This document shows positions 1,566-57,980 of a DNA stretch of 64,000 bases, piece by piece (positions within the stretch are counted from its first letter, which is position 1; each line of letters starts with the position of its first letter). Location: the IMG/VR virus record IMGVR_UViG_3300023172_000016, positions 26,914-90,913 of that record; one strand, 5' to 3'. Origin of the DNA: a virus. A program made the translations under genes and the position numbers. The notes beneath the pieces were generated by a model that was given only the letters and a program-made list of their open reading frames with translations, was not told the origin of the DNA and ran no database searches.

Positions 1566-1590
1566 TTAATTTTCTGTGAGTTTATAACTC

Positions 1591-1782: not shown

Positions 1783-1835
1783 TTTGTGGATTGGATTTTC
1801 TTGTATTTATCTTAGAATTTATTTTTTTTAAACTG

Positions 1836-2052: not shown

Positions 2053-2071
2053 CTCTTAATTAATTAGTTAG

Positions 2072-2157: not shown

Positions 2158-2191
2158 AACTCCACAAATCTAAGATATGGCTGGAAAATGT

Positions 2192-3061: not shown

Positions 3062-3075
3062 AGATATATTTTTAT

Positions 3076-3651: not shown

Positions 3652-3672
3652 ATTGTATTTATTTATTTATTT

Positions 3673-3695
3673 GCACGCCAGGTAGGATTCGAACC
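3673..3695. repeat. Direct repeat copy 1 (tRNA-Trp 3' end)
   Basis: A 23-nt segment, 21 of 23 identical to 4393-4415. It forms the 3' end of the chimeric tRNA. With its partner it brackets the GT25 gene. Confidence 0.75.
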
Positions 3696-3746
3696 GGCGA
3701 ATAGCGGTTTTGCAGACAGATCCATTAACCACTTGGGTACCTCGCC
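3675..3746 (-). tRNA. Chimeric tRNA-Cys(GCA)-like gene, probably defective
   Basis: A 72-nt tRNA-like sequence. The 5' part (D-arm, CTGCAAA anticodon loop) follows the intact tRNA-Cys at 1836, while the last 23 nt, including CCTACCTGGCGT, match the 3' end of the tRNA-Trp at 4394. As a result the acceptor has two mispairs (G1-G72, G4-G69), the T-stem GCCGG/CCTAC has two, and the anticodon stem TCTGT/ACCGC has two. It is probably not a working tRNA-Cys. A pseudogene or recombination scar is the best reading. Confidence 0.7.
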
Positions 3747-3747
3747 A

Positions 3748-4377: not shown

Positions 4378-4392
4378 ATGTTATTTATCTTA

Positions 4393-4415
4393 GCACGCCA
4401 GGTAGGGCTCGAACC
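4393..4415. repeat. Direct repeat copy 2 (tRNA-Trp 3' end)
   Basis: Partner of 3673-3695, lying in the 3' end of the intact tRNA-Trp gene. The two copies are 720 bp apart and enclose the chimeric tRNA body plus the GT25 gene. Confidence 0.75.
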
Positions 4416-4466
4416 CACGGCCCTCGGTTTTGGAGACCGATGCTCTACCAACTGAGCTACTGGCGT
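4394..4466 (-). tRNA. tRNA-Trp(CCA)
   Basis: A 73-nt cloverleaf: acceptor ACGCCAG/CTGGCGT is fully paired, with discriminator G. The anticodon loop CTCCAAA gives CCA. The T-arm is GTGGG/CCTAC with TTCGAGC and is slightly imperfect. Confidence 0.9.
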
Positions 4467-4472
4467 AAATTG

Positions 4473-4555
4473 TTGGCAGGGACGGATTCGAACCGCCGTA
4501 CTCCGAAGAGAGCAGATTTACAGTCTGCCGCCTTTAACCACTCGGCCACCTACCA
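4473..4555 (-). tRNA. tRNA-Tyr(GTA)
   Basis: An 83-nt type II tRNA. Acceptor TGGTAGG/CCTGCCA is paired. The anticodon stem GCAGA/TCTGC encloses CTGTAAA, giving GTA. There is a long variable arm and a T-arm GGCGG/CCGTC. Confidence 0.9.
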
Positions 4556-4566
4556 ATTTTGTACCC

Positions 4567-5247
4567 CTATTTCTTTCTAATTACCAGTTTAATATTCGGA
4601 CCAGCGACGTAATGATCACCTAATATCTCCCATTCAGATTCTGGAAATTTACAATAGTGATAAATCATAGAACCCTTTCCCAATATTTCCTGACTTACTG
4701 TGTATTCATCAGTTTTAACAAATTCACCGTTGGAAAAGATGTTCCAGTAAATAATGGTGCCCTGCATGAAATTATCATCTACTGCAATATAGGATCCGCT
4801 TTTCATTTTATCCTTAATTGCCAAAAACTCTAAAAATCCATGGAGCATTGAAGGTTCAGGGTTATAGATGTCCAGATCCCACGAATCAAGATGTACAAGA
4901 TCTGGGGAACCTTCAAATTCCCTTAAAAACTTAACAGAATCCATCTTATAATGGTGAGAATTGTTAAATTCCGGTAAGGTCTCTTTTAAAAGCGATTCAC
5001 TTCTTTCTGAGATCTCCTGATCTATATCAACTGAGTGGAATTCCCCTCCGTTCTCAAATGCCAAATGAGCAAAAAGAAAACCGAAGCATCCATCTTCTAA
5101 ATTCTGACTAGCTCCAGTTTCTATTACACGAAGATTATCTACCGTATGTAGATCAATCAGGTTAGAAATAACTTGAGCCTGACCTATCCTATAGGAAGGT
5201 GGTGAAATGGAATTAAAGAATTCCAAAGATTTTTCCCAATTTTTCAT
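4567..5247 (-). CDS. Class I SAM-dependent methyltransferase
   Basis: A 226-aa protein with a Rossmann-type methyltransferase core. Motif I is RVIETGASQ (about residues 40-48). The acidic residue that binds the SAM ribose is in GGEFHSVDID. Motif IV is LVHLDSWD, followed by GSYIAVDDN. It resembles the Methyltransf_24 group, which often occurs in glycan clusters. The substrate is unknown; the neighbouring GT25, DUF3431 and GH16 genes suggest a sugar. It sits between tRNA-Tyr and a tRNA-like element. Confidence 0.75.
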   Translation of the reverse strand: MKNWEKSLEFFNSISPPSYRIGQAQVISNLIDLHTVDNLRVIETGASQNLEDGCFGFLFAHLAFENGGEFHSVDIDQEISERSESLLKETLPEFNNSHHYKMDSVKFLREFEGSPDLVHLDSWDLDIYNPEPSMLHGFLEFLAIKDKMKSGSYIAVDDNFMQGTIIYWNIFSNGEFVKTDEYTVSQEILGKGSMIYHYCKFPESEWEILGDHYVAGPNIKLVIRKK

Positions 5248-5261
5248 AATATCCGTATTTG

Positions 5262-5362
5262 TAATCGCGATTGGATTCGAACCAATTCCAGCTTTTCCAT
5301 TCAGAGTCAGCCTTACTGTTACTCAACCTTGGGAGGTGCTTCCAACCAATGGACTCGCGATT
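5262..5362 (-). tRNA. 101-nt tRNA-like element, anticodon unclear
   Basis: It has a perfect 7-bp acceptor AATCGCG/CGCGATT plus discriminator A. The T-arm ATTGG/CCAAT around TTCGAAT is intact, and there is a D-arm-like TCC/GGA. About 28 nt more than a normal tRNA lies between the D- and T-arms. That region contains ACCTCCCAAGGT, which could be a Gly(CCC)-like anticodon arm, and an extra hairpin GAGT..CAG/CTG..ACTC. It may be a type II or intron-bearing tRNA, a degenerate copy, or a tRNA mimic. Confidence 0.55.
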
Positions 5363-5419
5363 GTTTTTTATTACTTAGCAAAGTTAAGCGAATGTGCCGC
5401 TAAATAAAAATAGCTTTCC

Positions 5420-5608
5420 TTATTTCTTAAGGACTTTCTTAGATCTCTCTGCTAACCAGACAGCTCCACTTTTTTTGAATTCCTTCCAGTTATCAAAATC
5501 CCGTAGATCCTGTATAACCTCATCTGGAATAAGTGTGAATCCCTCAGGTGCTATGCCCTGATATTTGTAATACACAGAATTCTCGATTTTTTCTTGTATG
5601 TCTGACAA
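5420..5608 (-). CDS. Hypothetical protein (62 aa)
   Basis: A 62-aa protein starting MSDIQEKIENSVYYKYQGIA and ending in a basic helix (WLAERSKKVLKK). It is flanked by tRNA-like elements on both sides. I recognise no domain; the central EGFTLIPDEVIQDL segment suggests a small mixed fold. It is likely a real phage gene because of its codon-like composition and clean fit into the gap. Confidence 0.5.
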   Translation of the reverse strand: MSDIQEKIENSVYYKYQGIAPEGFTLIPDEVIQDLRDFDNWKEFKKSGAVWLAERSKKVLKK

Positions 5609-5629
5609 TGTATCGTGGGTTATTTTTAG

Positions 5630-5705
5630 AGCCGAAGGCAGGAATCGAACCTATCGCGTCAAGACCAGTTTTGGCTGGCTTGCTCTGCCACTGAGCTACT
5701 CCGAC
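5630..5705 (-). tRNA. tRNA-like gene with 6-nt anticodon loop
   Basis: A 76-nt element. Acceptor GTCGGAG/CTTCGGC and D-arm GCTC/GAGC are intact. The anticodon stem GCCAG/CTGGT encloses only six bases (CCAAAA), and the T-stem ATAGG/CCTGC has one mispair and one G-U pair. The variable region is about 4-5 nt longer than normal. The anticodon cannot be assigned reliably (CAA and CCA are both conceivable). It may be degenerate. Confidence 0.55.
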
Positions 5706-5707
5706 TT

Positions 5708-5783
<76 letters not shown>

Positions 5784-5788
5784 TTTTG

Positions 5789-5862
5789 CTCCCCCACCTG
5801 GGCTCGAACCAGGGACCTATTGATTAACAGTCAACCGCTCTAACCAACTGAGCTATGGAGGA
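5789..5862 (-). tRNA. tRNA-Asn(GTT)
   Basis: A 74-nt cloverleaf: acceptor TCCTCCA/TGGGGGA with one G-U pair, discriminator G. The anticodon stem TTGA/TCAA encloses CTGTTAA, giving GTT. The T-arm is CCTGG/CCAGG. Confidence 0.9.
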
Positions 5863-5906
5863 ATAGAAAGGTCCGGGCCCAAAAATAGCCCTTTTGAAGA
5901 CCTTAG

Positions 5907-5979
5907 TTGCGGGAGAAGGATTCGAACCTCCGACCTCCAGGTTATGAGCCTGGCGAGCTACCTCTGCTACCATCCCGCG
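5907..5979 (-). tRNA. Initiator tRNA-fMet(CAT)
   Basis: A 73-nt cloverleaf with anticodon loop CTCATAA. Position 1 is C and faces A72, so the first acceptor pair is unpaired. This is the hallmark of bacterial initiator tRNA. The rest of the acceptor GCGGGA/TCCCGC pairs, and the D-arm AGCAGAGGTAGCTC matches the initiator pattern. Confidence 0.88.
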
Positions 5980-6095
5980 ATATAATTAAAGGAAGGGGAA
6001 TCTGGCGAGTACTTGTATTTGCCCGTTTCACACCGGTACCAAGCCTCCCGTCTTTTTCCAAATCCTTGCCTCTGTGAATAAGCACCCTTCCTTAG

Positions 6096-6167
6096 TTGCC
6101 CCTGCTGGACTCGAACCAACACTGACGGAACCAAAATCCGCTGTCCTGCCAATTAGACGAAAGGGCA
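6096..6167 (-). tRNA. tRNA-Gln(TTG)
   Basis: A 72-nt cloverleaf: acceptor TGCCCTT/AGGGGCA, discriminator A. The anticodon stem GCGGA/TCCGT encloses TTTTGGT, giving TTG. The 115 bases between it and tRNA-fMet hold no gene I can support; they have only a closing 7-bp inverted repeat (5991-5997 with 6085-6091). Confidence 0.88.
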
Positions 6168-6173
6168 AGATTG

Positions 6174-6247
6174 TGGGCCCAGCAGGGCTCGAACCTGCGA
6201 CCTACTGATTATGAGTCAGTTGCTCTAACCAACTGAGCTATGAGCCC
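6174..6247 (-). tRNA. tRNA-Met or tRNA-Ile2 (CAT)
   Basis: A 74-nt cloverleaf: acceptor GGGCTCA/TGGGCCC, anticodon stem CTGA/TCAG, loop CTCATAA, T-arm GCAGG/CCTGC. It has a paired first position, so it is not the initiator. Sequence alone does not settle between elongator Met and lysidine-modified Ile(CAT). Confidence 0.85.
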
Positions 6248-6311
6248 AGAAAACAGGATGCTTTTTTTGAATATTTGCTGTATCAAAAAGTTGCTGTATG
6301 CATCCTTTTAG

Positions 6312-6393
6312 TACCGAGGGTCGGACTCGAACCGACACACCGTAAGGCGCTAGATCCTAAGTCTAGTGCGTCTACCAATTTCGCCACCCCGGC
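6312..6393 (-). tRNA. tRNA-Leu(TAG)
   Basis: An 82-nt type II tRNA: acceptor GCCGGGG/CCTCGGT. The anticodon stem CTAGA/TCTAG encloses CTTAGGA, giving TAG. It has a long variable arm and a T-arm GTCGG/CCGAC. Confidence 0.9.
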
Positions 6394-6468
6394 ATTTGCA
6401 GGATATCGCTTAACCTGCGGTGAGTGTTCCTTTCACCTTGTTCCCTTTCGGTACTACGATTTTTTTGG

Positions 6469-6553
6469 CGGAGAGGGAGGGATTCGAACCCCCGGTACGT
6501 TGCCGTACGCCAGTTTTCAAGACTGGAGCATTCGACCACTCTGCCACCTCTCC
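6469..6553 (-). tRNA. tRNA-Ser(TGA)
   Basis: An 85-nt type II tRNA: acceptor GGAGAGG/CCTCTCC, discriminator G. The anticodon stem CCAGT/ACTGG encloses CTTGAAA, giving TGA. The variable arm GTACGGCAACGTAC is perfectly paired. The T-arm is GGGGG/CCCTC. Confidence 0.92.
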
Positions 6554-6652
6554 ATGTTCGGTTTTGTTCCACATTAGCCCTACCACACAGTGGACATGGG
6601 TAGGATTTTGACTAAGGTGCTCCTAAGAGCTTTACACCGAAAACCTGATCAG

Positions 6653-6725
6653 AGCCACTGGAGGGACTTGAACCCCCGACAGGCTGATTACAAATCAGCT
6701 ACTCTACCAGCTGAGTTACAACGGC
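6653..6725 (-). tRNA. tRNA-Thr(TGT)
   Basis: A 73-nt cloverleaf: acceptor GCCGTTG/CAGTGGC with G-U pairs, discriminator T. The anticodon stem GCTGA/TCAGC encloses TTTGTAA, giving TGT. The T-arm is GGGGG/CCCTC with TTCAAGT. Confidence 0.88.
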
Positions 6726-15438: not shown

Positions 15439-16929
15439 TTAATCCTTTTTGTATAAAATTTCCATAAATTCTATTCCACCATATGGATCTCCTTTTGCTT
15501 GCATTGGTGAATAGCCATCAACTTGGTCAGAAACCACGAAAGCTTTGTGAGGGTTAACCATAACACCAAGCTTTTTCATTAATGGCCGGTTGGCTAAAAA
15601 CGGGGTGCTTTTAGATATCCTGTCTGTTGGTGCAACTTTTACTTTAGGAATCTTGACGCCATTGAAAACTATATCCATTTCTATAATGGGTCTTTCGTCT
15701 GTATCCCTACCTATTTCAGTTTTGGTTCTGCCAACAATTTTTCCTTCAATCTCATTTTCACCAATCTTGAATTTGAGAGTGTCTCCATTTTCTTCAATTT
15801 CATCAGCATGGATAGAAGATGCTGTGGAACCGTTTCCTGTATCAAATTTAGCTACCATTTTTCCGATGGATGGAATTTCTAAAGTTTCAAGATATCCTAC
15901 CTCCAACTTAGTCTGAGACCAATTCTTCTTGTCTACAATATAATCCAAGACATCTCCTACGATCGGTTTTCCGATAGCTTCAGATATTCCTTCCGTTCCT
16001 GGTGATGAATTTACCTCAAGTATAAATGGCTTGCCAGTTTTAGAGTCAATCATAATATCAACGCCACACCAGTTACAAGATACACTGTTTGCTGCTTCAC
16101 AAGCTATTTTTTCAATCTCCTCATTAGTTTCATAAGCTGAAACCTCTCCACCTAAGGTATAATTAGTCCTAAAGTCTTTCTCTACTGCTTGCCTTTTCAT
16201 TGCTCCTAGGACTGTGCAGTTTTCTACACCCGGGTTTAAAGGATCGAATTTTTTAACTATTACCTGAATCCTTACATCGAAATCAGAATCGATCTTTTCC
16301 TGCAAAAGTATTTCACCATCAGGATCAAGTTTTTGAATTGTTTGGTAGACTGACTTAAGAGATGCATAAGAGTCTACAATTGAAACTCCAATACCTTGTG
16401 AACCAGACAACAGCTTCATCACTACCGGAAATTCTCCCCCAACTTCTTCAAGAGCTCTATCCAATCCCTTTGTGCTATTAACTAAAGCATATTTTGGTGT
16501 TGGAAGCCCTTCCTCATCAAGGACTTTTGATGTGAGGTATTTACTTTCACATATTTCTATAGATTCCAAAGAATTAACACAGAAATATCTAGATGCTTCA
16601 AGATCTCTCATAATTTGCTTTGTGTAGGAGTTAGTAGTGACTCCTCCCCTTGGAACAATAGCTGTAGTCTCTGGTCTTATTAAGATCTCTTTAGCCTCTT
16701 CTCCGTCAGTGTACTTAACCACGTGTCCATTATAGACCTTCTCTAGTACCACATTATTGACGTTAACAACATTAAATGTTAAACCTCTTTTCTCACACTC
16801 CTCTGCGAAAGACTTAGCAGTTTTGCTGGGTTTTGATTCCCCACTAAGCATAAGAATATCTACGGATTCGTTATTCTCGGCTTCATTTAGAAAAGATTGA
16901 AAATTAAGTGCAGGGGAAATCCTTTGCAT
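15439..16929 (-). CDS. RimK-type ATP-grasp ligase fused to retropepsin-like domain
   Basis: A 496-aa two-domain protein. Residues 25-320 are an ATP-grasp ligase like RimK/LysX (VVMKLLSGSQGIGVSIVD, EILLQEKI, PFILEVNSSPGTEG); these add amino acids such as glutamate to a protein or peptide. Residues 335-490 resemble the retropepsin-like PF05618 domain (MVAKFDTGNGSTASSIHAD, with the DTG motif). The N-terminus has the putative head-targeting motif NFQSFLNE (residues 9-16). If packaged, it could modify host proteins on injection, as T4 Alt does; that role is inference. Confidence 0.82.
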   Translation of the reverse strand: MQRISPALNFQSFLNEAENNESVDILMLSGESKPSKTAKSFAEECEKRGLTFNVVNVNNVVLEKVYNGHVVKYTDGEEAKEILIRPETTAIVPRGGVTTNSYTKQIMRDLEASRYFCVNSLESIEICESKYLTSKVLDEEGLPTPKYALVNSTKGLDRALEEVGGEFPVVMKLLSGSQGIGVSIVDSYASLKSVYQTIQKLDPDGEILLQEKIDSDFDVRIQVIVKKFDPLNPGVENCTVLGAMKRQAVEKDFRTNYTLGGEVSAYETNEEIEKIACEAANSVSCNWCGVDIMIDSKTGKPFILEVNSSPGTEGISEAIGKPIVGDVLDYIVDKKNWSQTKLEVGYLETLEIPSIGKMVAKFDTGNGSTASSIHADEIEENGDTLKFKIGENEIEGKIVGRTKTEIGRDTDERPIIEMDIVFNGVKIPKVKVAPTDRISKSTPFLANRPLMKKLGVMVNPHKAFVVSDQVDGYSPMQAKGDPYGGIEFMEILYKKD

Positions 16930-16957: not shown

Positions 16958-18070
16958 CTACTTGGTGACGCTTATTTCCCTCTTGGATCTGGCAAGAGCA
17001 CTTCCGATTACGTGGTGCATATCGTAATATTTGTACTCAGCTAATCTTCCACCAAATATATACTTATCAGAAATTTGTTCAGCCAATTTCTTGTAGGCTG
17101 AATAAATGTTTTTATTCTTTTCGTCAGATACTGGATAAAACCTCTCTTTGCCTAATTTCCACTCGGAGGGAAACTCTTTGGTAATGACTGTCTTATCTGA
17201 TTTTACCCAATCAAAATGCTTGTGTTCACATATCCTTGTCCAAGGTATATCGGCTTCAGTGTAGTTTATTAAAGCATTTCCCTGAAAGTCTTCAATATCT
17301 AAAATTTGTGAATTGAAGTCTAGACTTCGATATTCTAAGATACCCTCTGAATAATCAAAGAATTCGTCGATAGGACCGGTGAAAACTATTTTTTTGGCTT
17401 GAGATTCCCAATATTTTCTGTCCTCTAAGAAATCAACATTAAACTTTACCGGGACATCACCTTGGATATTCTCTATCATTTTGGTGTAACCACCAATAGG
17501 TATTCCTTGGTACTTATCGAAATAATAATTATCGTCGTATGTTAACCTTATCGGTAGTCTCCTTATGATGAAAGAAGGCAATTCTTTAGGGTCTCTTCCC
17601 CATTGCTTAGTAGTGTATCCCCTTACAAACTTTTCGTAAATCTCTTCTCCAACCTCATTAAGAACCCACTCTTCGAGGTTTGAGGGTTTCTTAATTTTTA
17701 TCCTAACCTCGTCTAATTTTTTCTTTGCCTCTTCGGGAGTATTAACACCAAAAAGCTGATATAATGTCATGAGGTTAATCGGGAATGAAAATATTTTTTC
17801 CCCGTACTTAACTTTGGGTCTATTCACATAATTATTAAACTTAGCAAATCTGTTTACATAGTTCCAAATGCCATCATCAGATGTGTGGAATATATGGGGT
17901 CCATATTTATGAACCTCTATACCATGCACATTTTCGGTATAGCAATTTCCACCGCTATGATTCCTCCTCTCGAGGATAAGGCAACTCTTACCGGACTCTG
18001 TAAGTTGTTGTGCAAATACACTACCAAAAAGACCGGAGCCAACTACGATATAGTCATAAGTATCATTCAT
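16958..18070 (-). CDS. glf: UDP-galactopyranose mutase
   Basis: A 370-aa flavoenzyme of standard length. The FAD-binding motif is VVGSGLFGSVFA (residues 9-20). The family blocks HKYGPHIFHTSD, FPINLMTLYQLFG and RGYTTKQWGRDPKELP are all present. It converts UDP-galactopyranose to UDP-galactofuranose, the donor for galactofuranose in surface glycans. It starts 3 bases from the glycosyltransferase gene upstream, so the pair may make and transfer galactofuranose. Confidence 0.95.
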   Translation of the reverse strand: MNDTYDYIVVGSGLFGSVFAQQLTESGKSCLILERRNHSGGNCYTENVHGIEVHKYGPHIFHTSDDGIWNYVNRFAKFNNYVNRPKVKYGEKIFSFPINLMTLYQLFGVNTPEEAKKKLDEVRIKIKKPSNLEEWVLNEVGEEIYEKFVRGYTTKQWGRDPKELPSFIIRRLPIRLTYDDNYYFDKYQGIPIGGYTKMIENIQGDVPVKFNVDFLEDRKYWESQAKKIVFTGPIDEFFDYSEGILEYRSLDFNSQILDIEDFQGNALINYTEADIPWTRICEHKHFDWVKSDKTVITKEFPSEWKLGKERFYPVSDEKNKNIYSAYKKLAEQISDKYIFGGRLAEYKYYDMHHVIGSALARSKREISVTK

Positions 18071-25721: not shown

Positions 25722-26741
25722 TTAAAATTTTTCTTGGTAAGATTCTATAAATTCTTGTTGATCTGGGGTTAGGTTCTTTGGCACTTTAATTCCCATCTTA
25801 ACTAGTATATCACCACGATAACTTGAGTTAAATTCAGGAACCCCCTTACCAGCCAATCTGAATATTTTTCCGGGAGGAGTACCACCAGGAATTGTTATTT
25901 TATATTCACCACTAGATACAAGATTCGGGATGTGTACTTCCTTACCTAAGCAAGCCTCAGGAAAAGTAAGATCAACATCACAGATGAGATTATATCCATC
26001 CCTTCGATAGAAATCGTGTTTCTTATCATAAACACTTACAATTAAATCCCCCGGGTCAGATGGTGATTTTGCATGGTCTCCCTTTTCAGGAACTCTAAAT
26101 GTAATACCAGTAACAGAACCCTTGGGTATTTTGATTTCTATTCGGTCAGACTTTCTAACTACACCAGATCCGCCACAGGAATTACAGGATGATTTTGGTA
26201 ATTTGCCAATACCTTCACAAGCATAACAGGTTTCATCCATAGCCATCTGTCCGAAGTTAGTATTTACTACCCTTCTCTTAACACCCATACCAGCACAAAC
26301 ATGACACGTATCAAGGTCACCATCCTTTGCTCCAGTTCCTTTACATTCGGAACATTGCATATTCCTGAACAGGTTTGCATTTTTTGTAGATCCACTAAGT
26401 ACCTCCTCTAAAGTAATCTCAACCCTGGCATTGATATTCTTGCCTTTCTTGATTACCTCACTCTCATAAAAGTTACTGTTGTGAAATCCACCACCGAATG
26501 GATTGAACCCACCACCAAAGGAGCCACCAAATGGATTTGGATTGTCGTACTCCGATTTCTTCTTTGGATTACTTAAAGTCTCGTATGCTTCAGCAATCTC
26601 CTTAAATTTTTTCTCTGATTCTGGATCCCCACCGGATTTATCCGGGTGATACTTTAAAGCTAGTTTTCGATATGCTTTCTTAATCTCATCCGCTGAGGAG
26701 TTCCGATTAACTCCCAGTATTTTATAATAGTCCGGCTTCAT
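25722..26741 (-). CDS. dnaJ: DnaJ co-chaperone
   Basis: A 339-aa full-length type I DnaJ. The J domain has HPD at 32-34. A Gly/Phe-rich linker covers 60-95. Four CxxCxGxG-type zinc repeats follow ([32 protein letters not shown]), then the two C-terminal substrate-binding barrels. It stimulates host DnaK. Phage-encoded full DnaJ is uncommon; with Hsp20 and ClpP it forms a phage protein-quality set. Confidence 0.95.
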
Positions 26742-31651: not shown

Positions 31652-32938
31652 TTATTGATTTGCAGATTCCTTTTGTTTAATCATTTCAGCTTTTTGTACA
31701 GCGGATTTCCTGAAGTAGTCTAAATTTTTTAAAATCCTGTCCTTTTCTTGGTTTGGCAGTGACGGGAAAAAGTCCATTTTTACTACCGCTTCAGTCTTTT
31801 CAAAAGCTACTTCCGGATTCCCAGTATGAAAAGCTGCAAGTGAGTATTCATCTAAAAGTCTCCATTGCCATATATCGGGCTCAACAAAAAGTATATCAGA
31901 GGTCCCCGGGTTCTTCACTGCCATATTACCGTATGTGAATGACATCACCCACCTTCCACGCTCTCTTAACTTTCTCATTGCATGGAAAACAGCCTCTAAC
32001 CTCTCCGGTCTATATTCCCAAGCTCTAGAATATGCTTGGATAACCTCATCCGGATGTCTCCCCAGCTGCTCTTTAATTTTACCAATCATGTACATTGAAT
32101 AGTATACCTCTTCTTCCCATCCACCGGCTTCAATTCTTCTTTCATAAGCGTCAATGGCTTTTAACTTTTGTCCGGAGTCACGGTAGCTTTGTGCAAGATA
32201 GAACATGTACCTTGCGTTATCTGGTTCATCTTCCAATGCTTTCTCAAGAATCTCTGCATCATTAGAGTATTTTTCTTCAAGTGAATTTGCTCTTTTTAAA
32301 GGACTAATATCAGCATCCACATGACATCTATCTGAGGGGATTTGATATTGAACCAGTTGCTCTTTTCCGGGAAGATCTAAATACTCGTGAAGAACCCCCT
32401 TATAAACCCAGTCCTGATCAGATCTCACAATCTGAGCACGGTGGTACTGAAGGTTATTTAACTTATAAAGAATTTGGTAGCAATCCACATCTTTAGTAAG
32501 TCCGTGAAATGGATTAATCGAGCTATCTGTTGCTTGAAAGGTATCATCAGCATCTATGATCCATCGATAGTCACACTTACCCTTTGCTAATTCCAAGCTC
32601 TCTGTGCGGTTTACTTCAAAGTTTACCCAGGGTCTTTCGTGTAATTCGCCCTCGATTCCGAGCTCTTCCATTGTGGAATTGATTTCATCTATTGTATTAT
32701 CAGAAGAACCTGTATCAACTATAACATAATATGAAATATAAGGAGCAACCTGGGTTAAGCACTTTCTAATAGTATCACCTTCGTCCTTGACAATCATTAC
32801 CAAACACATACTAATGCCTTGCAATGAGGTATCTACTGGTTTATTTTCCAAAGTAGGATTGGGTACTGCTTTTAGTTTAGGTGTTTTCTTTTTACTAGAA
32901 AGCTTGTTGGATTTTTTCCTCTTAGTTTTAGGTGCCAT
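31652..32938 (-). CDS. GT2 glycosyltransferase with TPR-type C-terminus
   Basis: A 428-aa protein. Residues 1-35 are lysine-rich and disordered. Residues 40-220 are a GT2 domain (SMCLVMIVKDEGDTIRKCL, VIVDTGSSDNTID, YRWIIDADDTF with the DxD motif). Residues 235-400 form helical TPR-like repeats (ARYMFYLAQSYRDSGQKLKA). This arrangement is typical of bacterial and phage GT2-TPR proteins that modify surface glycans or proteins. A TATAAATA box lies 24 bases upstream. Confidence 0.85.
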   Translation of the reverse strand: MAPKTKRKKSNKLSSKKKTPKLKAVPNPTLENKPVDTSLQGISMCLVMIVKDEGDTIRKCLTQVAPYISYYVIVDTGSSDNTIDEINSTMEELGIEGELHERPWVNFEVNRTESLELAKGKCDYRWIIDADDTFQATDSSINPFHGLTKDVDCYQILYKLNNLQYHRAQIVRSDQDWVYKGVLHEYLDLPGKEQLVQYQIPSDRCHVDADISPLKRANSLEEKYSNDAEILEKALEDEPDNARYMFYLAQSYRDSGQKLKAIDAYERRIEAGGWEEEVYYSMYMIGKIKEQLGRHPDEVIQAYSRAWEYRPERLEAVFHAMRKLRERGRWVMSFTYGNMAVKNPGTSDILFVEPDIWQWRLLDEYSLAAFHTGNPEVAFEKTEAVVKMDFFPSLPNQEKDRILKNLDYFRKSAVQKAEMIKQKESANQ

Positions 32939-45527: not shown

Positions 45528-45536
45528 TTATATATC
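45528..45536 (-). promoter_or_regulatory. GATATATAA promoter-like element
   Basis: A perfect copy 19 bases upstream of the GTG start at 45509. It touches the stop codon of the ligase-adenylyltransferase gene. Confidence 0.55.
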
Positions 45537-47451
45537 AGTCCCGTACCTTCGTAATAAGGTCGTTGTAGAGATTTGATACCTCTTGTGGAACCATCTTTTT
45601 AAACTTTGAAAAGTCTTGGTCTTTAATGGCTTGTCTTACATCAGTACCACTTGTTACCCTTGGTGTTTCCACAATTTCTAGCTCGTCGCTAATCTTGTCT
45701 TTTATATCAGACATCTTGATATAGTCAATCTGCTTGGTATAGTCATCTTTTCTGTCTGGACCAGCACCAATTAGCCTTGGGTCATATCCCATATCGATTA
45801 GCTTTGATATAGCAGATCCTAAAAGACCCCTGTTTACCATCATATATCCCTCTATCTCCTCGTTGTTTGATACGATGGAATCCATATACATTTTTATGGA
45901 ATCGTTGTCAAATGGGGATTTTCCTGACTTATTGTGGCCTGGATAAACCACAACTACATAAGAAGGTAGATCGTTCTTTTCCTTAAGGGCTTTAGCCATT
46001 TTCAGATGCCCATGATGGAAAGGCTGGAATCTACCCATAATAACATTAACCGGCTTTCTTTCGTCAGAGACATCTTCTTGCAGTATATCTACTTCCTCTG
46101 GAATTTCCTCATTATCAATTGTCTCTAATTTGGAGATAAATTCTTGGTAAGAAACTAGTGGATCATCAGAAGTTTCAAATTCTTCATCCTCCTCCTGAAT
46201 ATAATCTACAGATGGAGACATTTCCCTTCTAAAGTCACCAAAGCTTATGAACTTTGATTCGTTCACATTTTTAGCAGGACGCTTAATGTAATCCTTAATG
46301 TCCTTGATCAGCAAATTAATTTGATCCTTCATACCAGAAGTTATAATACCGCCAGCTCTTGTCTTGATTTTTCTAAAAGAGTTAAGTATCAACTTGAATA
46401 AAGATTCAAACGAATCGTCTTTCTCAATGTATTTAAGAACCCTCCTGTCCTTAATCTTATCACGATTTAGTCTGAACTCGTCTCTCTTTAGATATTCAGG
46501 TTCGTCAAAATCAGTTCCTCTATATTTCTCTGCATATTCATCAAGGAATTTCACAAATACATCGCTCATAAACGAAATATATCTCTCATCCTCTGAATCT
46601 CCGTTAACTTCAAACTCAGATAATCCTTTTTCTAAAATGAAGTTCATAACGTCCATCACAGTTATACCAAGAAAGTCTGAAGGCTTTTTACTCTTCCTAT
46701 CAGCAAACTTTTGTTTTGCAATCTCAGTAAAGATAGGGTCGACCATTTTTGCAAGGACAGTATCGCTATCACCCTCAAGATCACCAAATCTGAAAACTAT
46801 ACCCTCTACATCTTTATCAAGATCATCATTCAGAGCAGTTTTCTTTAGGTCTGGGTTAAGAGTCTTTATGATAAACCTAACAAAGGATTGTGTTTTAAAT
46901 CTTTCAACAAGCTCTTTAAATGGAGTATTCAAAAAATCCAAAAGCTCGGATTTTTGGTCCTCACTTAATACCCCTTGAAATACAATAGGTGGTTTTTCAA
47001 CACCCAGAAGATCTGCCCAGTTATCTAGCTCCTCCTTATCTTGGATAGTACTAATAATCTTACCGTCATCACCCATTTTGTGGATATAAGAAAGAATAAG
47101 ATTATTCTTAGGAAGTCTATCATAAACAATCTCAACAGGCTTGTTGTTAGCAAAATACTCTAATCCAAATCTCCACCCTCTCGGAACCTTTTCAAGTATG
47201 TGGGGTGGCAAAGACTCTACATATTGAATTGGTTTTTCATAGTACTTCATCAAAGTCCTATCAACCAATGTAATTGGGTTCCTTTGATCTCTTCTATAAA
47301 ACTTAAAGTTTCCGGTTTCCTTGTCTCTCTCAAAAGAGAAAGCAGACCCGTCCATCTTCTCGTTTATTGTTACGAACTGATTGAAAAGCTGACCAACAAA
47401 GTCAGACCCTTTCTTGTTATAAATGTCGTATAAATGATTGATTCCTGCCAT
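45535..47451 (-). CDS. RNA ligase fused to NMN/cytidylyl-type nucleotidyltransferase
   Basis: A 638-aa fusion. Residues 1-250 are an ATP-dependent RNA/DNA ligase domain with motif I EKMDGSAF (Lys32 would be adenylylated) and GWRFGLEYF (motif III-like). Residues 250-400 are helical. Residues 400-450 form an acidic linker that contains FISFGDFRREM and SYQEFISKLE, resembling head-targeting motifs. Residues 460-638 are a nucleotidyltransferase with GRFQPFHHGHL and TSGTDVRQAI, as in NadM/NadR. It could link NAD or nucleotide metabolism to RNA repair; the substrate is unknown. Confidence 0.82.
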   Translation of the reverse strand: MAGINHLYDIYNKKGSDFVGQLFNQFVTINEKMDGSAFSFERDKETGNFKFYRRDQRNPITLVDRTLMKYYEKPIQYVESLPPHILEKVPRGWRFGLEYFANNKPVEIVYDRLPKNNLILSYIHKMGDDGKIISTIQDKEELDNWADLLGVEKPPIVFQGVLSEDQKSELLDFLNTPFKELVERFKTQSFVRFIIKTLNPDLKKTALNDDLDKDVEGIVFRFGDLEGDSDTVLAKMVDPIFTEIAKQKFADRKSKKPSDFLGITVMDVMNFILEKGLSEFEVNGDSEDERYISFMSDVFVKFLDEYAEKYRGTDFDEPEYLKRDEFRLNRDKIKDRRVLKYIEKDDSFESLFKLILNSFRKIKTRAGGIITSGMKDQINLLIKDIKDYIKRPAKNVNESKFISFGDFRREMSPSVDYIQEEDEEFETSDDPLVSYQEFISKLETIDNEEIPEEVDILQEDVSDERKPVNVIMGRFQPFHHGHLKMAKALKEKNDLPSYVVVVYPGHNKSGKSPFDNDSIKMYMDSIVSNNEEIEGYMMVNRGLLGSAISKLIDMGYDPRLIGAGPDRKDDYTKQIDYIKMSDIKDKISDELEIVETPRVTSGTDVRQAIKDQDFSKFKKMVPQEVSNLYNDLITKVRD

Positions 47452-52696: not shown

Positions 52697-53653
52697 TTAG
52701 AGATCTGCGTATAGGTCGTCTAAAGACGAAGATGTTTCTGGTGCTGATGGTTGTTGAATACCTGCACTCGGTGCTGGGGTAGAATCAGATCCAACTTTCG
52801 TTGAAGAAGCCTCTTTGTAAATTTCATTAGACGAAGAAGATGAAGTTGAAGGAGATGTTGTTTTATTAGCGCCTCCCAAAACTTCATTTACCAACCTGCC
52901 ATCAGGTACCGTGTTTTGGATAATATTCATAACACGATCGGTAGTTTTTTCGTCCCAATCTTTGTACTCAAACTGTGTAAGATTGTCTGGCCCAGTTTTG
53001 AGGTATTCCATGATGGTGTTCATATCATCCTGGTTTTTCTCCATCTTTTTACCGTTGATCTCGACTGGTGTTCTGTCACCAACAAAAGAACAAAGATCGT
53101 AGTTGTTCCATTCTCCAACTTTTCTTGTATGAACTGAGAAAAGCTTTCCTTCAAATAGATCGTACGGGTTGCAAGCATCCCCATATTCTGGTTTTAGCTG
53201 TGCTTCAAGCATATCATTTAGTTTTCTACCAAACTTAAAAACCATAATATTACCCTCCAATTCAGGATTGTGCTTGTCTTGCACAATTTGAATTAGTGAA
53301 TAGTAGTCTTCCTTTCTGGAGAAGCTTTTAGACAATTCCTGATCTGCAGCAGAATGAGAATTCTTTAGCTTCCAGAACATGTCTTTCAAAACAGATTTTT
53401 TACCAACTGTCGAAGGACAGTCTACTGGGAATCCATCTCCAGTGCTTGGATCGTTTAGGTAAACGTAATACTTGTGAATTTTTGACTTTGTAGGGTCAAC
53501 GTGATTAGGAAGAAAGCGGATCAGCGACTTGTAAATTCCATCCTTTCCGTTCTCCGGATATGGTTTGTAAAATTCTGTTCCCTCTGAATTCTCCTTTTTT
53601 GTTTTCGTTACGAACGCTTCTGCGTCCAGGTTGAAAATGTCTAAATTACTCAT
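52697..53653 (-). CDS. 32: Single-stranded DNA-binding protein (gp32-like)
   Basis: A 318-aa gp32-type protein. The core (20-230) has FYKPYPENGKDGIYKSLIRF, VVFKFG-like NIMVFKFGRKLNDML, and VHTRKVGEWNNYDLCSF. The Ser/Thr-rich linker leads to an acidic tail SSSLDDLYADL, the docking site for replication and repair partners. The T4 zinc ligands (His and three Cys) are not conserved; only one Cys remains at that site (PVDCPSTVG). Confidence 0.88.
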   Translation of the reverse strand: MSNLDIFNLDAEAFVTKTKKENSEGTEFYKPYPENGKDGIYKSLIRFLPNHVDPTKSKIHKYYVYLNDPSTGDGFPVDCPSTVGKKSVLKDMFWKLKNSHSAADQELSKSFSRKEDYYSLIQIVQDKHNPELEGNIMVFKFGRKLNDMLEAQLKPEYGDACNPYDLFEGKLFSVHTRKVGEWNNYDLCSFVGDRTPVEINGKKMEKNQDDMNTIMEYLKTGPDNLTQFEYKDWDEKTTDRVMNIIQNTVPDGRLVNEVLGGANKTTSPSTSSSSSNEIYKEASSTKVGSDSTPAPSAGIQQPSAPETSSSLDDLYADL

Positions 53654-53692: not shown

Positions 53693-54475
53693 CTAAGTGT
53701 CCCAAAAGTTTCCCTTAGATTGTATATATGCATAATTTTTTTTATCTATTCGTTCACCTGTGGATTCAATTTCCCACACTCTCTTACCTCTTAAGGATAC
53801 CTTTACCATAGGGCGGGAAAGGTTAAATTCAGAATTAAGTATATGATGCTTTAAAAGTGTCTCTGGGTGAAAGTAAACACCAGAGAGAATGTATTCTTCC
53901 ATCATCTCGTAGAGTTTTGAGTAGTGTTCCATTGCTTCCCTACCTCCCCATGCAAAAATATCATTAACCCCGCCCTTCCAATCAAAACCGGGAGGAATAC
54001 ATATAGTTTTTAGATTTGGATCCAAAGGGATGTCGTTGTGGATTTTTATGTCCATTCTTCCTTTTATAATATAATCATATCTCTCACCAGTTAGGTTTTC
54101 ATACTCCTCTAAAAGGAGAAAGGACTGTCTTATCTTATACCACATCAAGAAAACCGAAACTGGATTTATCTCACCAGTTTGTGGGCCATAGCTTTCAAAC
54201 GACCACGCTTTATCTATTATCCTTGATATACCCGGGGATTCAAACTTGTCCATCTTTATGGTTACTGGAGAATAAAGACTTGCTAAAGTGTCGGTGCTTA
54301 GGGTGTCAGTAAGGTGGTGTGTTTCTGCATGAAGGGAATTTTTTATAGTTTCAGATGGGCTCCAGGTAGATATAAAAACATCTGGCTTAAACCTATCCAA
54401 AATTCTGCCTTTTAAGTAGGGAAAGGTTTCTTTTGCCTCCCTAATCTGGCCAGGAAGTAAAAGAGCTACTTTCAT
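53693..54475 (-). CDS. Glycosyltransferase-like protein (260 aa)
   Basis: It begins MKVALLLPGQIREAKETF, then RFKPDVFISTWSPS and YDYIIKGRMDIKIH. This combination recurs in proteins of viral and bacterial glycan loci that are annotated as glycosyltransferases. R-M-D occupies the position of a DxD-like motif. No experimentally defined family is claimed. It overlaps the GDPD-like gene by 35 bases and belongs to the 53693-57199 cassette. Confidence 0.55.
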   Translation of the reverse strand: MKVALLLPGQIREAKETFPYLKGRILDRFKPDVFISTWSPSETIKNSLHAETHHLTDTLSTDTLASLYSPVTIKMDKFESPGISRIIDKAWSFESYGPQTGEINPVSVFLMWYKIRQSFLLLEEYENLTGERYDYIIKGRMDIKIHNDIPLDPNLKTICIPPGFDWKGGVNDIFAWGGREAMEHYSKLYEMMEEYILSGVYFHPETLLKHHILNSEFNLSRPMVKVSLRGKRVWEIESTGERIDKKNYAYIQSKGNFWDT

Positions 54476-54920
54476 TTGTACTTAAAAATTTGTACTTCTC
54501 TATATAATCTGAGCAAATTCCACAACATCCGTTAACAGGATCATCATAGATCTCAGGAAGAACTGCGATACTTTTATTTATGGGCTGATTTCCAGGGAAA
54601 GCCCAAATGAAAGACTTAGAAGTAAGAGTTATTCTGTCTTGTTCATGCCAAAATACATTGAATTCAACATACTCCTTTAGATACACAAGGGCAGAGATGT
54701 TTTTGCAGTGGATCCAAAGGTTGTCTGATCTCTCCATAAGCCAATCTAAGGAGACCTTAGAATTTGGGGAATCGTGTCCTAAATAAAGTGAAGATCCAGA
54801 TATCCAAACATCTATCTCCACATCATAACCAAGATCAAGAGCTTCTTGTATGTAGTCAAGGTTGTTCTCTCTTGATGGTATTGGCCCCTTTATATTTCCC
54901 CGGTGTGATATTAGTCTCAT
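54441..54920 (-). CDS. GDPD-like phosphodiesterase domain (159 aa)
   Basis: The N-terminus RLISHRGNIKGPIPSRENNL matches the HRG and E-N motifs of glycerophosphodiester phosphodiesterases, followed by GYDVEIDVWISGSSLYLGHD, which supplies the E-x-D and GHD metal/catalytic residues. At 159 aa it is shorter than the usual 240-260, so part of the barrel is missing or much reduced. It starts one base from the RuBisCO-like gene stop. It could act on a phospho-glycan intermediate; this is inference. Confidence 0.7.
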   Translation of the reverse strand: MRLISHRGNIKGPIPSRENNLDYIQEALDLGYDVEIDVWISGSSLYLGHDSPNSKVSLDWLMERSDNLWIHCKNISALVYLKEYVEFNVFWHEQDRITLTSKSFIWAFPGNQPINKSIAVLPEIYDDPVNGCCGICSDYIEKYKFLSTNESSSFTSWPD

Positions 54921-54921
54921 C

Positions 54922-56157
54922 CTAAAATATCCTGTAATCTAGGTCTTTAGAAAATGTTCTTTTTCCCCATTTCTTTATGGCACAAACATATTCCTCTTCT
55001 TGGAAATCATTATTGATGGCTTGCTTCATTGCCAAGCCACCAGCTCTAGTTCCCATTGGATGTCCATGCATAGCTCCTCCAACATTAGCCATCCAATCCA
55101 CACTATGTATAGATTCATTGATATAATCAACCAGACCAGGATGCATTCCACAACTGAGAGCTGGAACTATATTGTAATGCCAGAGGACTTTTAGAGTATC
55201 CCGTATCTCATCATCATCCTGGTTCATATAACCTCCAATCATTCCAGCATGTATAGAATCCACACCAGACCATCCAGCAATTTTACAAATCACAGGCCAG
55301 TAGATGTGGAATGGTGCCCTTTTGTCAGTAAAGAATTTATCACCACTTTTTTGAAAATGTATCCATAGGTTAGGGTTTTGCTTCCTTATAGCACGATATA
55401 CCCCAAGACCGCTCCAGACATTTATGTGGATTCCGTTCCCGCCATTATTTGCAACAAAATTTGCTCTCTCCAAAGCATATGGGCTATCACCATTTATACA
55501 AAAGCAATAAATAACATCTGGTGCATTCTCTTTCAACCAGGAAGAAATAAGTGGAACCCTTTCCTCAAAAGGACAATGACTAGGATTCCCTAAGAGCTCG
55601 TCTTCTTTTATGAAATTAACTCCTCCGTAGACCATCTCCTTTACTGCCTCTAGAAGAACCTCCGGACTCATACCAACTTTAGGCTTAATAATACCCCCAA
55701 AGAATGGCTTATCTATAACATTATTGAATCTTCTAAACCCATCTATACCATAAGCAGGGGCAAGAGAAAAATCAGATTCTACCTTATCAGGAAGGCTAAT
55801 ATCTAAAATATGACATTTTACAATTTCTTCGATGTCCACCTGTCCACCAGCTATATGACAAAGAATTTGGGATATTCCATCCTCCTCAAGGTTAATATTG
55901 TCAAGAGGGAATGCAATGGAAACTTCCCCAGATTTTTTTTGGGATAACTTCTTCTCGTCATCCAAAACGAAGCAGCTGTGATCCAAAAACATCTGATCGG
56001 TTTCCCAAATGCTCCTATTATTAGGATTGCCAATACTTTGACCTATTGCAAGATTCCAGGAAGCATCCCTTAATGATGTTTTAGCCTCTAGAAAATATCT
56101 TACTACAAAGTACTTTTGAACATCCAACGATTCTTCTTTTGTGAATATACTTATCAT
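54922..56157 (-). CDS. RuBisCO-like protein (form IV type)
   Basis: A 411-aa protein of the RuBisCO large-chain superfamily. There is a ferredoxin-like N-domain (1-135) and a barrel with GGIIKPKVGMSPE (155-167). The metal site GGVNFIKEDE (178-187) keeps Lys184, Asp186 and Glu187. His267, Ser335, GG at 360-361 and HGHPMG (364-369) are also kept. The loop-6 Lys (K334 in RuBisCO) appears replaced: GMIGGYM instead of G-x-x-x-G-K. It is therefore probably a RuBisCO-like enolase, isomerase or decarboxylase, not a CO2-fixing enzyme. Neighbours suggest sugar-acid or glycan chemistry. Confidence 0.88.
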   Translation of the reverse strand: MISIFTKEESLDVQKYFVVRYFLEAKTSLRDASWNLAIGQSIGNPNNRSIWETDQMFLDHSCFVLDDEKKLSQKKSGEVSIAFPLDNINLEEDGISQILCHIAGGQVDIEEIVKCHILDISLPDKVESDFSLAPAYGIDGFRRFNNVIDKPFFGGIIKPKVGMSPEVLLEAVKEMVYGGVNFIKEDELLGNPSHCPFEERVPLISSWLKENAPDVIYCFCINGDSPYALERANFVANNGGNGIHINVWSGLGVYRAIRKQNPNLWIHFQKSGDKFFTDKRAPFHIYWPVICKIAGWSGVDSIHAGMIGGYMNQDDDEIRDTLKVLWHYNIVPALSCGMHPGLVDYINESIHSVDWMANVGGAMHGHPMGTRAGGLAMKQAINNDFQEEEYVCAIKKWGKRTFSKDLDYRIF

Positions 56158-56477
56158 TTTACAATAAATTTATCTCCTGGTACTGATGGAGTTTTTACTA
56201 TAAAGACCTCGCAATCTTCAAGAAAAACTGGGTCCGCAACTTCACCTTTCCTAAGTATGAATATGTCGCCTGCTACTAATTCAGTTCCTTGTATAATCAT
56301 TTTACCACTTCTCAGGAAATTTATTTCATCCGCCTCCTTGTGATAATGCTTAGGCCAATCTTCACCTTGGATATGCTTCTTGTAGCAAACCTCAAAATCA
56401 CTTGTAGGAAAAGCAACAGGAGAGAAATTACCTGCGTACCAACCTCCTTGCATATTATCAATCTTAAATACTTCCAT
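56154..56477 (-). CDS. Cupin-domain protein (107 aa)
   Basis: The ATG at 56477 lies in a TGATG overlap with the upstream gene's stop; the codon before it is TTG. A single small cupin domain has metal ligands in WPKHYHKEADEINF (H-x-H, then E) and a second motif GDIFILRKGEVADP. Cupins of this size act as sugar isomerases, dioxygenases or sensors. The stop overlaps the RuBisCO-like start by 4 bases, so the two are translationally coupled and likely act in one pathway. Confidence 0.8.
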   Translation of the reverse strand: MEVFKIDNMQGGWYAGNFSPVAFPTSDFEVCYKKHIQGEDWPKHYHKEADEINFLRSGKMIIQGTELVAGDIFILRKGEVADPVFLEDCEVFIVKTPSVPGDKFIVK

Positions 56478-57199
56478 CAATTTACAATTCCTAAATATCT
56501 TTTTAAATCCTCGGGTGTACCGATCGGAAAGTGAAGGTTATAGAAGAATGGAAGTATTTTCTTTCCCTTTTTTATAAGATAATTATATGTAGGGGCAACA
56601 TAGAATTCGTTGTTGTAGCGATCGTTCAGTAAAATCATCTCCTCCGCAGAATGAACGAAATCTGATCCTTTGCTCCAAAAGTGTAATCCATTGGTAGCAA
56701 TGTTTGATATTACTATTTTTTCTTTGACATCACAAACCTCGCCGTTGGGATCCAATTTTACATAACTGTTCTTCTTAGAAGATGAAAGAAAACATCCAAG
56801 CAATCCGTCACATCCAGTAACCCCGACAAAGTCAATAATGTTATCGAGATCATAATCCAATATAACCTGGTCACAGTTGATGACCATCAAAGGATCTTCG
56901 TTGTTTATTAAATCCTTTGCAACCAAAACAGTAGAAGCGGGTCCTTCAGTTAGCTTACTAACAGATCTTGTTTCATAAGTAATATTAAGATCACTTATGT
57001 GTTTCTCAAAATCTGACACGGACACGAATTCCTCGTTGATAACGAAAATGAAATTAGCAGAGGGATGATTTAGGTTCCTCACCACTGCTTTAATCATAGG
57101 TTCTCCGTTAACATCTATAAAAGGCTTCGGAGTTGCATAGCCTGCATCAGAAAACCTTTTTCCTGCACCTCCGAGAGGTATAAGTATATTAATCTTCAC
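56477..57199 (-). CDS. NTP-sugar nucleotidyltransferase
   Basis: A 240-aa Rossmann-like nucleotidyltransferase: INILIPLGGAGKRFSDAGYA (the GGxGxR signature), TPKPFIDVNGEPMI (Lys that contacts phosphate), and VINCDQVILD (metal-binding Asp). Length and motifs fit the NTP_transferase family that makes NDP-sugars or CDP-alditols. It is the activation step expected for a dedicated glycan pathway with the cupin, RuBisCO-like and GDPD-like genes. The sugar is unknown. Confidence 0.85.
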   Translation of the reverse strand: MKINILIPLGGAGKRFSDAGYATPKPFIDVNGEPMIKAVVRNLNHPSANFIFVINEEFVSVSDFEKHISDLNITYETRSVSKLTEGPASTVLVAKDLINNEDPLMVINCDQVILDYDLDNIIDFVGVTGCDGLLGCFLSSSKKNSYVKLDPNGEVCDVKEKIVISNIATNGLHFWSKGSDFVHSAEEMILLNDRYNNEFYVAPTYNYLIKKGKKILPFFYNLHFPIGTPEDLKRYLGIVN

Positions 57200-57869
57200 T
57201 TTTTTCTTTTATAGAGTCATATAAATAGAGACAAGTCCAAGTAGCATCTATAATGTCATCGAGTGGCTTGTTCACATTACCCGAAGGTGTAATCCATTCG
57301 TCCTTATTGTCATCTAATATGTTAGTAAAAGATTTTAGATTAGTTTCCAGGAATTCCTTTTCAACAAGAGCGTTATAGAGTTCGTGCTTTTTAGCATTGC
57401 CCTTGAACGCAAACTTTTTTATTGAGGTTGGAGAATAGACATAAAAGTTGTCGCTACCTGTGTGATCTACAATCTTTTTCCTAAGCAAAGCAGTAGCCAT
57501 AGAAATGTCAATGAGAGCGTTACCGTTGGAAGCAAAGCTTAATCCCTCCATAGCAACTATAACGTCATCACCACCACAAATATCTTCTATCTCCAACCAA
57601 AATTTATCCACGAGATCTTGGAAATAATCGATCTTGATTCTTTCCCTCTCTGAATAATCCTTTGGCATTTTATCTTTGCCCATGAAAAGGAGTACATAAT
57701 CCTCAGACTTATCCTCAGATAAAATGTGATAAGGCTTTTTGGTATTCTTCTTTAGAGATTCTGGTGTCCTTTCACTTCTTGTTAAGGATCCCCATGTAAA
57801 CTCGTTATCTCTAAAAACACAAAATGCTGGGGAGTTAAGTGAAAAGTCTATTCCGACTAACGTTTTCAA
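57189..57869 (-). CDS. RuvC-like Holliday junction resolvase
   Basis: A 226-aa RNase H-fold nuclease. Catalytic acids fit Asp8 in LVGIDFSLNSPAF, Glu in VAMEGLSFASNG, and the C-terminal pair in PLDDIIDATW. It would cut branched DNA before packaging. T4 uses the unrelated endonuclease VII (gp49) for this, so this may be a replacement. It overlaps the nucleotidyltransferase gene by 11 bases. A GATATATAA element is 25 bases upstream. Confidence 0.78.
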   Translation of the reverse strand: MKTLVGIDFSLNSPAFCVFRDNEFTWGSLTRSERTPESLKKNTKKPYHILSEDKSEDYVLLFMGKDKMPKDYSERERIKIDYFQDLVDKFWLEIEDICGGDDVIVAMEGLSFASNGNALIDISMATALLRKKIVDHTGSDNFYVYSPTSIKKFAFKGNAKKHELYNALVEKEFLETNLKSFTNILDDNKDEWITPSGNVNKPLDDIIDATWTCLYLYDSIKEKSED

Positions 57870-57906: not shown

Positions 57907-57935
57907 CAAAAAAGCCCTCCACATTGGAAGGGCTT
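57907..57935 (-). terminator. Rho-independent terminator
   Basis: On the minus strand AAAGCCCT/AGGGCTTT encloses TCCAATGTGG and is followed by TTTTTTG. It ends the 57981 transcript; the resolvase promoter-like element overlaps its downstream edge. Confidence 0.9.
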
Positions 57936-57980
57936 TGGTCCTCGGATAAACATCTGAGAAGGGGCGTACTTAAAGATCTA

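Follow-up and report, generated by a model that had tools for sequence, protein, structure and literature searches.

A mostly viral clade of RuBisCO-like proteins and its accessory, nucleotide-sugar-type gene cassette in a T4-like phage

We analyzed a 64,000-nucleotide window (positions 26,914 to 90,913) of the 90,913-base IMG/VR virus record IMGVR_UViG_3300023172_000016, in which a gene for a RuBisCO-like protein (RLP) is embedded in a cassette of five minus-strand genes lying between ruvC and the gene for the single-strand DNA-binding protein gp32. In order, these genes code for a sugar-phosphate nucleotidyltransferase (NTR), a small cupin, the RLP, a GDPD-like protein and a glycosyltransferase (GT)-like protein. 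We consider it somewhat better than an even bet that this is an accessory nucleotide-sugar cassette in which the RLP would act as a sugar-phosphate isomerase feeding the synthesis of an activated sugar, the reaction, product and target being the predicted parts of this proposal. It draws on the affinities and active site of the RLP, the recurrence of the cassette across virus and cellular loci, and a replacement of the RLP by other sugar-phosphate enzymes in sister cassettes.

The RLP matched the Pfam RuBisCO_large profile (PF00016) at 7e-32, with 111 bits against a cut-off of 30.1, and its N-terminal RuBisCO domain scored just below the respective Pfam cut-off. Its AlphaFold2 model (pLDDT 92.3, pTM 0.90) grouped in Foldseek searches with the RLP 3nwr, which was the best match, and with form III RuBisCO (E ~1e-29). 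Membership of the RuBisCO superfamily is confirmed by the profile score above the cut-off taken together with the RuBisCO fold of the predicted structure. Among the NCBIfam models the protein reached 157 bits with rubisco_III, 123 with OiaX (cut-off 700) and 112 with MtnW (cut-off 409), all far under the cut-offs, and a second MtnW model gave 81 against 514 bits. We then placed it in a tree with labelled references from forms I and III, MtnW, the Photo group (C. tepidum and R. palustris RLP2), OiaX and the kinase-linked RLPs, and none from IV-DeepYkr, IV-NonPhoto, IV-AMC or IV-Aful. In this tree the viral and cellular relatives of the RLP form one separate clade with 100/100 support, and the phylogeny places this clade outside forms I–III, MtnW, Photo and OiaX. 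A grouping within true RuBisCO, which an earlier note made from the sequence of the window alone had named as an outcome that would refute its reading, did not occur. Likewise, we rejected membership of MtnW or OiaX on the NCBIfam scores and the tree position, and of IV-Photo on the position apart from C. tepidum and R. palustris RLP2. Cellular branches (Elusimicrobia, Azospirillum, DPANN and part of SAR11) are the deepest within the clade, which makes a cellular origin of the viral group probable; this direction rests on midpoint rooting.

To compare active sites, 110 RLPs non-redundant at 90% identity (94 viral and 16 cellular) were aligned and numbered after the spinach enzyme. Of the residues that mark a bona fide RuBisCO, K175 and the metal-site triad K201/D203/E204 are invariant in all 110 proteins, as is K177 (window protein: K158, K184, D186, E187 and K160, respectively); the earlier note had rightly recognized the carbamylated lysine and metal-binding acids in the KEDE stretch at 184–187. 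The remaining marker residues are replaced: E60 by G, T65 by N, N123 by G and H294 by Q in 110 of 110 (G39, N44, G105 and Q269 in the window protein), R295 by K (K270) and H298 by D (D273) nearly always, and K334 by Y (Y310) in every protein except a single cellular one that is gapped at this position. Thus, the loop-6 lysine is replaced as the note had claimed, and further carboxylation residues are lost with it. S379 and G381 are retained. No other RLP in the alignment combines a kept K177 with Q294, K295, D298 and Y334. In RuBisCO, E60 and K334 form a salt bridge that closes over the carboxylation site, and the loss of both therefore argues against carboxylation; the retention of K175 and of the metal site argues for the enolization of a phosphorylated ketose.

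Relatives were counted by scans with two peptide patterns in virus contigs that are partly redundant, and the resulting figures are lower bounds rather than rates. An alignment-based scan recovered the family in at least 316 of 2.9 million IMG/VR virus contigs, and at least 19 loci were found in ~85,000 cellular genomes; judged by these scans, the clade is mostly viral. Two cellular lineages were surveyed: of 247 genomes in the order to which the SAR11 genome G001 belongs, two have the family, G001 being one of them, and of 299 genomes in the phylum that includes Azospirillum, the Azospirillum genome alone has a close member. Neither the window protein nor a distant cellular relative, used as query, matched any of 50,697 phage genome records, and plasmid RuBisCO relatives reached at most 34% identity among the matches listed. 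When IMG/VR was scanned with motifs typical of forms I–III, 21 matches were returned, all of which fall in the RLP clade by profile score; that IMG/VR has no true RuBisCO is a provisional result, the scan having had no positive control there. The earlier note had called an RLP in a phage striking; it is no isolated case, given the number of contigs encoding the family and the viral "rbcL" or "RbcL-like" genes already reported (PMC12607003, PMC8506154, PMC12615777). The cassette is also carried by a contig of megaphage size (L061, 518,643 bases), and one contig from a metagenome-assembled genome (L099) looks viral.

The five overlapping or abutting genes described in the earlier note were all recovered on the minus strand at the positions it gave (Table 1). 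The NTR gene overlaps ruvC by 11 nt and the cupin gene by a TGATG; cupin and RLP genes share a 4-nt ATGA, a single nucleotide separates the RLP and GDPD-like genes, and the GDPD-like and GT-like genes overlap by 35 nt. Because ruvC is preceded by a terminator-like hairpin and no clear one was found from ruvC to gp32 (both being searches for consensus matches only), co-transcription of the cassette is likely. We compared the ruvC–gp32 site in 80 IMG/VR contigs located via gp32. The full set in the same order, spanning ~3.5 kb, is present in 16 sister contigs, and 60 have no cassette gene at the site, with a gap of mostly 66–690 and once 1,303 bases. By virtue of this synteny and of the empty sites, the cassette is a discrete accessory insertion in this phage group. 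The GDPD gene alone occupies the site in four contigs (L412, L413, L414 and L417), perhaps as a remnant or by independent gain. The GC content of the cassette (0.36–0.40) is the same as that of its flanks; a recent foreign composition is thus ruled out, and it is the empty sites rather than composition that hint at recent gain. The genes are under strong purifying selection: synonymous sites are saturated (proportion of synonymous differences, pS, ~0.8) and nonsynonymous divergence (dN) of the RLP is only 0.09–0.16. This saturation left most gene pairs without a computable dN/dS.

Table 1. Genes of the cassette and the elements bordering it, in window coordinates
Feature	Position	Strand	Details
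Sugar-phosphate nucleotidyltransferase (NTR), first cassette gene	56477..57199	-	240 aa, GTG start; PF00483
Small cupin	56154..56480	-	108 aa from TTG; ATG start at 56477
RuBisCO-like protein (RLP)	54922..56157	-	411 aa
Compact GDPD-like phosphodiesterase-fold protein	54441..54920	-	159 aa
Glycosyltransferase-like protein, DUF7796-type	53693..54475	-	SGQxR and YDxxIxxRxD motifs; phrog_13607
RuvC-like resolvase, left border of insertion site	57189..57869	-	phrog_159 5e-15; empty-site comparison
gp32 single-strand DNA-binding protein, right border	52697..53653	-	PF08804 4e-11; phrog_224 2e-32; empty-site comparison
Terminator-like hairpin, setting ruvC and the cassette apart from the tail genes	57911..57936	-	10-pair stem; consensus match only

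The same partners recur around the RLP elsewhere. Among 110 non-redundant RLP loci, an NTR gene, counted within 5 kb on the same strand, is found near the RLP in 101, a cupin gene in 84 (adjacent in 77), a GDPD gene in 83 and a GT-type gene in 52, with the order NTR–cupin–RLP conserved in 67; on this recurrence we rejected a chance cluster or isolated oddity. Further neighbors include Methyltransf_24-type methyltransferases (34 loci, adjacent in 24) and SDR epimerases (33 loci). The cellular loci (SAR11, Patescibacteria, Elusimicrobia and Nanoarchaeia) have the same core beside polysaccharide-type genes. The prospect that the genes never co-occur elsewhere, which the earlier note had raised against itself, is thus set aside by both phages and cellular polysaccharide-type loci. 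In SAR11 loci L088-L092 the RLP gene lies between two nucleotidyltransferase-like genes, the upstream one of which is divergent with an altered GxGxRF motif, and several of these loci sit between thyX-like and mrp/hflKC-like genes.

The partner proteins could be assigned with varying firmness. The NTR has the features of a sugar nucleotidyltransferase, with a PF00483 match at 4e-12 and the GxGxRF and KP motifs in its alignment, and its profile matched the nucleoside-diphosphate-sugar pyrophosphorylase 4evw in the PDB at 7e-34. The cupin is weakly assigned, 18 of 24 relatives matching Cupin_7 and 5 matching Cupin_2; the protein has a metal-type motif, H45xH47..E52, of which H45 and E52 are invariant in the cupin alignment. 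In the GDPD-like protein the catalytic HR..EN..ExD..HD pattern of glycerophosphodiester phosphodiesterases (GDPDs) is present as HRG/EN/EID/LGHD, with residues fixed or almost fixed across 30 sequences, and its profile matched a GDPD in the PDB at 3e-4. An AlphaFold2 model of the 159 residues (pLDDT 93) has a compact fold that aligned with GDPDs in Foldseek (E 6e-3, prob 0.99, TM 0.52); a Pfam search of the family returned nothing relevant, and the full-length GDPD domain of ~240 aa is absent. The GT-like protein of the window had no Pfam match and its profile none in the PDB; its relatives include DUF7796 in 12 of 19 and share a conserved acidic motif, and "glycosyltransferase" is the weakest label in the cassette.

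A pointer to the role of the RLP comes from related cassettes without it. Cyanophages hold the GDPD and NTR genes, and sometimes the cupin gene, in the absence of an RLP; in Synechococcus phage SynMITS9220M01 the NTR carries a LacAB/RpiB isomerase domain as a fusion, with a PfkB-like gene preceding it. In a survey of 83 GDPD-anchored loci (80 from viruses and 3 from cyanophages), 11 proved to be RpiB-type cassettes (PfkB, NTR::RpiB, cupin, GDPD, GT) and many were of HAD::NTR fusion types. The two arrangements were mutually exclusive, with an RLP in none of these 83 loci and RpiB or PfkB in none of the 110 RLP loci. The cupins associated with RpiB share a single branch, placed next to three RLP-associated ones with moderate support (81–87). 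On these gene contents, the simplest reading is that the RLP replaces the kinase/isomerase step held by PfkB and RpiB in the sister cassettes. There is a published precedent for an RLP isomerase paired with a cupin: the DeepYkr RLP of R. rubrum and R. palustris is a 5-methylthioribulose-1-phosphate 1,3-isomerase, the product of which goes to a cupin methylsulfurylase in methionine salvage (PMC5893883). Because of the swap and this precedent, we favor isomerization with moderate confidence, and they, rather than sugar-acid chemistry, are the nearest functional hint. Of the earlier note's interpretation, the identity of the RLP, its residues, its position outside forms I–III and the recurrence of the cassette stand, and the terms "sugar-acid" and "phospho-sugar" are not established. 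In many virus loci (L297-L376) an HAD-fused NTR is accompanied by a conserved ~244-aa protein of no known family (X242) beside the GDPD gene.

Under the proposed mechanism, the RLP would bind a ketose phosphate at the Mg2+-carbamate site formed by K184, D186 and E187; K158 and K160 would form the enediolate, and the isomerized sugar phosphate would be returned with its carbonyl shifted along the chain. From the residues present, the RLP is predicted not to carboxylate. The cupin may act next on the isomerized sugar phosphate, the NTR would activate the sugar phosphate with a nucleoside triphosphate, and the GT-like protein would transfer the sugar, the acceptor most likely being a glycan of the host surface or the virion. 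For the GDPD-like protein, a probable task in this pathway is the trimming of a phosphodiester.

Several points weigh against this proposal: the RpiB replacement is correlative, comes from 11 related loci and may exchange steps that differ in their reaction; enolase, decarboxylase and transcarboxylase chemistry is likewise supported by RLP active sites; the similarity behind the GT and GDPD labels is weak; cupin or GDPD is missing from some RLP loci; and two thymidylate-synthase-family genes in the phage leave DNA as a possible target. In a tentative and rather unlikely alternative, the nucleotide-sugar pathway is the same and the RLP decarboxylates, enolizes or transcarboxylates a keto-acid sugar phosphate, in the manner of OiaX or MtnW, to yield a branched or acidic sugar. 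Both families are among the NCBIfam matches, the best structural match is itself an RLP, and the site with K177 kept and R295 and H298 changed is unlike that of the other RLPs aligned; however, the scores fall far short of the cut-offs for OiaX and MtnW, the tree separates both, and the RpiB/PfkB replacement points to isomerization. That the sugar is destined for the bases of phage DNA as an anti-restriction device, comparable to the arabinosyl- and glucosyl-hydroxymethylcytosine of T4-like phages, strikes us as improbable. The phage does have a clear thymidylate synthase and a divergent second member of that family, a possible pyrimidine hydroxymethylase, and the cassette abuts gp32; yet a PF00303 gene of any kind is present in just 7 of 20 large RLP virus contigs (absent in 13), with two in few of them, the same cassette is found in SAR11 and other cellular polysaccharide-type loci, and glycan-type methyltransferases and SDR epimerases co-occur with the RLP.

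The cassette could also be functionless passenger DNA, given that it is accessory and that the full set is missing from 64 of the 80 sister contigs, but the intact reading frames, the saturated synonymous change with low dN, the all-or-none presence in 16 contigs and the recurrence across divergent viruses make this very doubtful. Least credible of all is a true viral rbcL that carboxylates ribulose bisphosphate during infection. Viral rbcL genes have been presented as auxiliary metabolic genes (AMGs) for carbon fixation (PMC8506154, PMC12615777, PMC13390420, PMC13288924), carboxylation is reported for a viral rbcL1 co-expressed with rbcS (PMC12615777), and a landfill study groups one viral gene with "RbcL-like" proteins (PMC12607003). 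Against this stand the replacement of E60, T65, N123, H294 and K334 in essentially all 110 members, the separate clade, and the lack of a small subunit or phosphoribulokinase among the recurrent gene families of the RLP loci; we reject true RuBisCO and carbon fixation on residues, phylogeny and gene context.

The surrounding region is T4-like: gp32 and genes resembling primase and UvsW lie on one side of the cassette, and the RuvC-like resolvase, tail tube and a large putative sheath gene on the other; primase, UvsW and sheath were named from the sequence itself rather than by profile matches. Elsewhere the phage codes for a ribonucleotide reductase, a topoisomerase II and a DNA polymerase. 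Another sugar-nucleotide gene, for a UDP-galactopyranose mutase (16958-18070, minus strand; PF03275 5e-76), is found in the window, as are genes for a family 2 glycosyltransferase with TPR repeats (31652-32938, minus strand) and a protein combining an N-terminal RNA-ligase-like with a C-terminal cytidylyltransferase-like stretch (45535-47451, minus strand). The divergent thymidylate-synthase-family protein that may be a pyrimidine hydroxymethylase is encoded at L479:1327-2118 (record ~18.3-19.1 kb, outside the window), and the full thymidylate synthase elsewhere in the same record. In addition, there are 14 tRNA genes clustered at 368-6725, a gene matching the RimK-like ribosomal S6 glutaminyl transferase PHROG (15439-16929) and a DnaJ homologue (25722-26741).

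We see about an even chance that it is chiefly viruses that have recruited a branch of the RuBisCO superfamily to nucleotide-sugar assembly, as a new kind of biosynthetic enzyme for sugar phosphates with a new active-site set (G60, N65, Q294, K295, D298 and Y334), and that most metagenomic viral "rbcL" genes belong to it and fix no carbon. The named RLP reactions in the papers and databases used (MtnW, the DeepYkr isomerase and OiaX) all serve salvage or catabolism, and a glycan-building viral role, if true, would extend one of the best-studied enzyme folds to a new use. Virome studies count viral "rbcL" towards carbon fixation, and correct naming would change the reading of viral effects on that process; the placement of 21 of 21 form I–III motif matches in the RLP clade bears on these claims. 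The cassette also offers a tractable enzyme set for finding the reaction. In the open literature, with subscription papers outside the search, no account of this clade or of the cassette turned up, nor anything on an RLP together with polysaccharide and nucleotidyltransferase, or on RuBisCO-like together with virus and auxiliary metabolic gene. The Global Ocean Sampling survey had noted RuBisCO homologues outside all known forms, 65 of which clustered with no known RuBisCO (PMC1821046).

Compared with known systems, the phage RLP is closest by profile to form III RuBisCO, which is also near the top by structure and has K175, K177, K201, D203 and E204 in common with it, but the phage family lacks E60, N123, H294, R295 and K334 and lies outside forms I–III. 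MtnW (form IV-YkrW, the 2,3-diketo-5-methylthiopentyl-1-phosphate enolase) shares the RuBisCO fold, the carbamate lysine with the metal acids and the E60-to-Gly change, and is set apart by its cut-off (112 vs 409 bits), by a separate branch with 100/100 support and by differences at K177 and the 294–298 stretch. OiaX, the 3-oxo-isoapionate-4-phosphate decarboxylase, and the RLPs beside four-carbon acid sugar kinases likewise perform sugar-phosphate chemistry and are among the best full-length NCBIfam matches; OiaX differs in score (123 vs 700 bits), in having HRNG at 294–298 as against QKSGD in the phage family, and in its catabolic operons. The published viral rbcL and RbcL-like AMGs (PMC12607003, PMC8506154, PMC12615777, PMC13390420, PMC13288924) resemble the phage gene as RuBisCO-family genes in virus contigs; compared by description only, and as far as the accessible text goes, they are annotated as carbon fixation genes with no account of such a cassette, clade or active-site replacements. 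With DeepYkr the phage system shares an RLP gene beside a cupin gene and a non-carboxylating RuBisCO fold on a ketose phosphate, the phage substrate being the predicted one; DeepYkr differs in belonging to bacterial methionine salvage, not described with NTR, GDPD or GT, and is likened here by description, its sequence being outside the tree. Finally, the cassette of SynMITS9220M01 has homologous NTR, cupin, GDPD and GT genes, and differs in having an RpiB domain and a PfkB kinase in place of the RLP.

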